A DNA stretch of 64,000 nucleotides, taken from the NCBI RefSeq assembly GCF_001719125.1, contig NZ_CP017006.1, positions 310,001-374,000 on the forward strand, written 5' to 3'. Each line of letters opens with the position of its first letter. Position 1 is the stretch's first letter. Below the pieces are notes generated by a model. It was given only the letters and a program-made list of their open reading frames with translations, had not been told where the DNA came from and made no database searches. Below, piece after piece: positions 56,573 through 57,861 of the stretch. Both the position numbers and the translations under genes were made by a program. Source of the stretch: Sulfolobus sp. A20. GTDB lineage: Archaea; Thermoproteota; Thermoprotei_A; Sulfolobales; Sulfolobaceae.

Positions 56573-56899
56573 TTAAACCATAAGTGCCAAATCTTGAAAG
56601 TCCATTGGTAACATTTTCTTCTTTTCAATAATCTCTTGATATTTGTTATCTAGAAACCCTATGAATATAGGACAAGTTTCATACTTTCCTTCACGCTGGC
56701 ATTTTTCACCTAATGTAAGGAAACATTTACCATTTTTCTTGTCATAATATGGACATAACTTATAATACGTCTTTGCACTTTTTATCATTCTCTCTATCCA
56801 CTGTTTCTTATGATCTTTCTTTTCGGCTTCTTTCTCTGCTTTGGCTAATACTTTATTTATCTCGTCTTCGGACATTTTCACTGACTTATTAGCTGACAT
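56573..56899 (-). CDS. small Cys-rich protein, possible Fe-S or zinc binding
   Basis: The 108-residue protein (ATG 56899, MSANKSVKMSEDEINKVLAK) has a helical charged N-terminus and four cysteines in the second half: KLCPYYDKKNGKCF and GEKCQREGKYETCPIF, giving C-x(8)-C and C-x(8)-C spacing. This suggests one metal or Fe-S site. An upstream extension in the same frame is basic and unlikely. The gene precedes the dyad-rich region next to whiP, on the same strand, and may be transcribed from within that region. Function unknown. Confidence 0.7.
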   Translation of the reverse strand: MSANKSVKMSEDEINKVLAKAEKEAEKKDHKKQWIERMIKSAKTYYKLCPYYDKKNGKCFLTLGEKCQREGKYETCPIFIGFLDNKYQEIIEKKKMLPMDFQDLALMV

Positions 56900-56947
56900 A
56901 CTTCTCCTCCTCTTGCTTATTAGTTTGGATAAATAGATTAAATACAT

Positions 56948-57069
56948 TACTACTACTACAACAAGCCCAGTAAGTCTATTATCTTCCTTTAGTATGTTTG
57001 TATAATTATTTTAAAATAATTTTCTCCCAACAAAGGAATTCAGTTAACTGAGAATCTATAGTAGTAGTA
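56948..57069. other. candidate replication origin (oriC3-like) with nested dyads
   Basis: A symmetric non-coding element next to the WhiP-like gene. Seen: perfect 11-base inverted repeats TACTACTACTA (56948-56958) and TAGTAGTAGTA (57059-57069); near the centre an 18-base perfect palindrome AATTATTTTAAAATAATT (57004-57021); and a 12-base palindrome TCAGTTAACTGA (57040-57051). The outer repeats are centred at 57008, four bases from the centre of the AT palindrome, which could be a melting element. In Sulfolobus one of three origins, oriC3, lies beside whiP and is specified by WhiP. No classical ORB box was recognised. The origin assignment is inference. Confidence 0.5.
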
Positions 57070-57120
57070 TATATTAAAATCAAGAACACAGAAGTAGAAC
57101 GTATATTCATGCGACTTATC

Positions 57121-57861
57121 TTAACATTCTGAAATTAGTTTCCTTAACTGTTGAGATAGACCTATCCTTATTCCCATCCTAGGATCCTGGTAAATATAAA
57201 TAAGCCTCTTAGTCTGTAATCCTCTTAACACTTTAAAGATCCAATTAGTGTCAGCTCTAATTTCTTCTTGAAGTTGATCCAGATAGATGTATGTTGTGCC
57301 CCATTCTTTATATTTATTAAGTAAATTTATTAATATTTCTTTTTCGTCTTCCTCTAATTTTTCTAGAATCTCCTTTATACAATCCGTTATTTCTTGTTTT
57401 TGTCCTTTTTTGTTTACTTTACTAGTTTGGTTATCAATAAACCACAAAACTTTTTGATTTTTGTTGTCCGATTTTTTCTCCTCTTTGTAGTTCATTGTCT
57501 GTTTAACTTGTTCTTTTCTATCCAGTATCTGTTTAGCAAGAACTAGCATTTCTTTGAACTTAGAATTAGTATATGAATCTAGTATCTCTTTTGCTAATTC
57601 CTCACCTTTTCTACTCAAATGCCATCTGCCTCCTTCTTGATAAACTAACCCTTTCTTCTTCCAGTAGCTGAGATAGCTACTAACGTATTTAGTTTCATAA
57701 CCTAAATTGCTCGCTATTTCTGAAGTTCTTAAAGGTCTAGCATATAATAGTATAATAACTGCTTCGACGAGTTTTGATCTAGGACTGCCGTTGAACTTCT
57801 CATCATTTGTAAGTTGCTGGATTACTTCTTCCATGTCATTGTCTTCATAGTCGCCAGTCAT
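57121..57861 (-). CDS. whiP: WhiP-like replication initiator (two winged helices)
   Basis: The 246-residue protein has two winged-helix domains: the first at about 27-95 ([20 protein letters not shown], wing GGRWHLS), the second at about 165-246 ([20 protein letters not shown], wing [12 protein letters not shown]), joined by a Lys/Gln-rich linker. This is the layout of WhiP, the Cdt1-like winged-helix initiator protein that specifies oriC3 in Sulfolobus, and I recall WhiP lying close to the alpha thermosome gene, as here. A plain transcription regulator is the alternative. The stop codon lies 52 bases from the adjacent symmetric dyad region. Confidence 0.72.

Follow-up and report, generated by a model that had tools for sequence, protein, structure and literature searches.

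In Sulfolobus, the replication origin oriC3 adjoins the whiP gene, needs the WhiP protein and gives a WhiP ChIP signal. WhiP initiates chromosomal replication but does not belong to the Orc1/Cdc6 family; its origin is described in the open literature only in terms such as 'lacks ORBs' or 'repeats unclear'. Which DNA letters, then, does WhiP read? The question is posed here for the DNA beside whiP in Sulfolobus sp. A20, in a window of 64 kb (the whole stretch of DNA that was analysed; coordinates refer to it unless given as genomic).

The stretch 3′ of the whiP stop codon (56900–57120) very probably has the anatomy of oriC3, the third replication start site of a Sulfolobus-type archaeon. We consider it highly likely that positions 56936–57070 are the core of this WhiP-dependent origin, with inverted GTA-triplet boxes acting as WhiP sites, an ucm between them bound by UBP, and MCM recruited to the DNA between. 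The position of oriC3 beside whiP, its ucm, the absence of ORBs and the dependence on WhiP were already known; new, at least relative to the open literature, are the inverted GTA-box code, spelled out here, its preservation in several families, and the indication that the S. acidiphilus origin may lie 3′ of whiP.

The whiP downstream region and its sequence elements

The features of the locus, from whiP to the next gene downstream, are as follows.

57121–57861, minus strand: whiP, coding for a tandem winged-helix initiator protein of 246 aa (ORF; homologue in genome G013 at the position reported for S. acidiphilus whiP; AlphaFold2 model)
57058–57069, minus strand: whiP-proximal arm TACTACTACTAT, a GTA-triplet box pointing to whiP, kept in Sulfolobaceae and most other whiP-bearing families
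57040–57051, no strand: 12 bp palindrome TCAGTTAACTGA, not conserved (palindrome search)
57004–57021, no strand: 18 bp AT palindrome AATTATTTTAAAATAATT, abutting ucm and species-specific (repeat search; missing in six congeners)
56996–57006, minus strand: ucm ATTATACAAAC, the UBP-binding motif (11/11 against the ucm oligonucleotide of PMC12141716; same 11-mer at oriC1)
56948–56959, minus strand: whiP-distal arm GTAGTAGTAGTA, inverted relative to the proximal arm (repeat search and comparison with relatives)
56936–56947, minus strand: outward extension of the distal arm ATGTATTTAATC (conserved alignment columns)
56573–56899, minus strand: downstream gene for a Cys-containing protein of 108 aa (ORF; start ATG at 56897–56899 behind AGGAGGAG)

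The gene adjoining the element, previously described as WhiP-like, can be identified as WhiP because its homologue in G013 (1,016,611–1,017,306) lies right behind the interval 1,016,172–1,016,607, which according to PMC6647314 lies directly upstream of Sulfodiicoccus acidiphilus whiP. WhiP homologues are present in 42 of 60 relatives. Comparison with Pfam gave winged-helix matches, all below threshold, while the AlphaFold2 model has two confident winged-helix domains (residues 30–82 and 171–235) with a disordered linker between them. The best of the solved folds matching the model were MarR-type regulators, weakly, and Sso10a was also found. A plasmid or virus as the source of the origin was rejected, as WhiP had no match in PLSDB or IMG/VR.

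The start of the downstream gene is better placed at ATG 56897–56899 because an MSANK/MSTNK start is conserved in the genus, and the intergenic region is therefore 56900–57120; an earlier ATG, at 56947, adjoins the distal arm. The 108 aa protein has a conserved Cys pattern and occurs in 57 of 60 relatives, including some without whiP. It matched no Pfam family above the cut-off.

The perfect 11-base inverted repeats noticed in the first-pass annotation are present as TACTACTACTA (56948–56958) and TAGTAGTAGTA (57059–57069), 100 nt apart. An 11 bp inverted pair at a distance of 80–130 nt arose in 4 of 1000 dinucleotide shuffles of 56900–57120. The two arms form an inverted pair because both, from inside to outside, read GTWGTAGTA and then an AT-rich extension. 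Their placement around the AT palindrome, described earlier as symmetric, is approximately so (arm midpoint 57008.5, palindrome centre 57012.5).

Both palindromes of the first-pass annotation exist. The perfect 18 bp one was matched in 0 of 1000 dinucleotide shuffles of 56900–57120 and is the sole palindrome of that length in the window. It is private to this genome and absent from relatives, so the proposal that it is the melting site is unsupported; it may aid melting, at most by adding A+T beside ucm, and forms no conserved part. The 12 bp palindrome is ordinary, since 11% of 1000 dinucleotide shuffles contained one of at least 12 bp. Neither is kept in relatives, and palindromes were rejected as parts of the core.

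The conserved centre is instead the ucm at 56996–57006, giving a core of three parts in which ucm is flanked by two GTA-triplet arms in inverted orientation. The earlier reading of this region as the core of oriC3 thus overlooked its centre, but the region itself stands as the best oriC3 candidate. At oriC1, ucm is required for activity and is bound by UBP (PMC12141716); its 11 bp form was derived from the comparison of wild-type and control oligonucleotides in the methods of that paper. The match is 11/11 here and also at oriC1 of this genome, where ucm lies between two ORB-like sites. No ORB or mini-ORB flanking ucm was apparent on inspection of 56900–57120, in agreement with the first reading of the sequence. 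The ucm core alone (TTATACAAAC) was rejected as evidence; it has 12 copies in the genome, the same number as the reversed control, so only the combination of arm and ucm is informative. The UBP gene of this genome (670,068–670,385, genomic) was found through its homologue in genome G020, which matches PDB 9EFD, 9EFE and 9EFF, the accessions of the UBP paper.

The surroundings of orc1-3 in this genome (L061, 1,905,500–1,910,500) lack a ucm even when one mismatch is allowed, and five relatives have a perfect ucm near orc1-3. In this species oriC2 may have moved or degenerated.

Strand composition also switches near the element. Over 400 kb around the site, the cumulative disparity of A+C versus G+T rises to a maximum at genomic position 366,281 (56,281 of the window) and then drops, placing the maximum 0.7–0.8 kb from the element (366,936–367,070). 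Block permutation gave modest support, an equally large slope change being seen in 3 of 300 permutations. The break in a two-slope fit falls at 362 kb, which is 5 kb away from the core. GC skew alone was less sharp than the A+C versus G+T disparity and was not decisive.

Conservation of the arms and ucm beside whiP

Relatives in much of the order keep the same sequence elements at whiP. The first-pass annotation had named loss of the repeats where whiP is kept as evidence against it; the comparison found the triplet arms conserved with whiP, which speaks in its favour. An alignment of seven congeners shows three conserved blocks 3′ of whiP (TACTACWACTAT, TTATACAAAC and GTAGTAGTAGTAATCTATTTAATC) in a diverged background, and the same three blocks are present in other Sulfolobaceae genera. 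An arm is weak or missing at L008, L009, L017, L028 and L030, and at several Pyrodictium-type loci.

A strict arm–ucm–arm pattern (TACTAC-N30-60-TTATACAAAC-N30-60-GTAGTA) was scanned in 61 genomes. It was found in 18 of them, every match lying just 3′ of whiP, and is single-copy in the genome studied here; the reversed control pattern gave no matches in the scan. Other families were examined with a matrix trained on Sulfolobaceae and scored on held-out loci at p ≤ 0.05 against shuffles. The arm–ucm–arm triple was detected in the downstream stretches of 47 of 51 such whiP genes, compared with 6 of 51 upstream stretches of the same genes, in a set of loci that are related to each other, with arms of low complexity and with shuffles that preserved dinucleotides only and so leave triplet repeats unmodelled.

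The distance between the proximal arm and ucm in Sulfolobaceae is 51–54, 62–64 or 75 bp, that is, in steps of about 10 bp (vector length 0.85 at 10.5). The distance from ucm to the distal arm is looser, with a vector length of 0.41. Helical phasing of box and ucm is only a suggestive hypothesis, because the latter distance is unclustered and shared ancestry inflates clustering.

On balance, it is probable that the inverted boxes, with their AT-rich extensions, are WhiP sites and that the ORB-free box–ucm–box plan beside whiP predates the split of Sulfolobaceae, Acidilobaceae, Pyrodictiaceae and Ignisphaera, possibly with a spacing in helical turns. The simplest reading is that the two GTA arms would be the recognition sites of WhiP. 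The layout suggests, short of proof, which DNA letters WhiP reads.

Comparison with known origins

The oriC3 of Sulfolobus and Saccharolobus (S. islandicus, S. solfataricus, S. acidocaldarius) resembles the present locus in having whiP adjacent, a central ucm and no classical ORB. The same arm–ucm–arm element lies at whiP in G020, which we take to be S. acidocaldarius (1,197,382–1,197,498), close to the position of about 1,200 kb published for oriC3 of that species. In Sulfolobus sp. A20, unlike at these origins, the interval from proximal arm to ucm has about 10 extra bp and contains the 18 bp AT palindrome. Genome G055, presumably A. pernix, likewise has a TAC arm 3′ of whiP, but its central motif (TTTTGTATCATT) and its distal arm (GGTTGTGGTTGTA) have diverged. 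One origin of A. pernix is of WhiP type and has been equated with Sulfolobus oriC3.

In Sulfodiicoccus, oriC-2 was placed upstream of whiP (PMC6647314). The corresponding locus of G013 (L028) has a conserved arm pair downstream of whiP, with a degenerate ucm (ATTAGACAAAC), an indication from the sequence that the origin of S. acidiphilus may lie 3′ of whiP, contrary to the 5′ position proposed before.

The plan also resembles that of oriC1 (ORB3–DUE/ucm–ORB2, served by Orc1-1), where two inverted initiator sites, with a total span of about 130 bp, flank a central ucm. Here, GTA-triplet boxes replace the ORBs, and WhiP is a tandem winged-helix initiator without an AAA+ ATPase. This suggests one plan common to origins with unrelated initiators, in which an inverted pair of initiator sites flanks a UBP site. 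By analogy, WhiP on the two GTA boxes would recruit MCM to the intervening DNA, melting would occur in the A+T-rich stretch next to ucm, UBP on ucm would help MCM to leave, and forks would then run both ways. What we infer from this arrangement is that WhiP binds the arms, that MCM is loaded here and that the site fires in this species. A defined box pair around ucm, kept in several families, provides a precise sequence for testing how WhiP marks origins and loads MCM.

The region could be oriC3 and yet have its arms bound by Orc1/Cdc6 or another factor, for example at 'nORB'-type sites, with WhiP binding elsewhere. PMC3718332, a 2013 study of ten S. islandicus strains and S. solfataricus P2, describes three ORB-like 'nORB' sites around the ucm of oriC3; those of S. 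islandicus LAL14/1 are conserved repeats on both sides of ucm, as here, although there are three of them, and they may be the GTA arms. The arms might also not be WhiP's alone, because a review reports footprints of Orc1/Cdc6 proteins at S. solfataricus oriC3. However, the arms are unlike the ORBs of oriC1 in this genome, the arm–ucm–arm pattern occurs away from whiP in 0 of 61 genomes, and oriC3 of S. islandicus depends on WhiP. Binding of the arms by a factor in place of WhiP is therefore unlikely, and WhiP remains the preferred candidate for their recognition.

Possible transcriptional roles of the arms and variation at other whiP loci

The arms might instead serve the downstream 108 aa gene as operator or promoter elements. 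The start codon of that gene lies about 45 bp downstream of the distal arm and its AT extension, and the extension, which is well conserved in Sulfolobaceae, probably doubles there as the TATA region. In 20 genomes the 108 aa gene is not beside whiP, and its upstream region has neither GTA arm nor ucm; whiP loci of other families, on the other hand, keep the arm–ucm–arm triple despite different downstream DNA. The element therefore tracks whiP and not the 108 aa gene, and a purely promoter function, rejected on the basis of these 20 genomes, is highly improbable, while dual use of the extension of the distal arm is possible. Autoregulation, in which WhiP would use the arms as operators for local transcription and the origin would be at another place near whiP, is barely credible: MarR-like winged-helix proteins often bind inverted repeats, but the element is 3′ of whiP and away from its promoter, the upstream control stretches mostly lack it, and it contains ucm, which is essential at oriC1.

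Two further features were seen at whiP loci outside the Sulfolobaceae. Several carry an inverted repeat, GTTAACC-N4-GGTTAAC (mostly GTTAACCGGGGGGTTAAC), about 20–30 bp past the distal GTA arm. Its offsets from the whiP stop codon are listed by locus.

L115: 179
L122: 189
L131: 192
L145: 190
L153: 167
L157: 168

This repeat has 7 copies in G045 and 15 in G088, and is absent from the genome of Sulfolobus sp. A20. Many Acidilobaceae-type loci (L117, L118, L121, L124, L129 and L153) have a ucm-like centre in the opposite orientation relative to whiP (TTTGTATAA).
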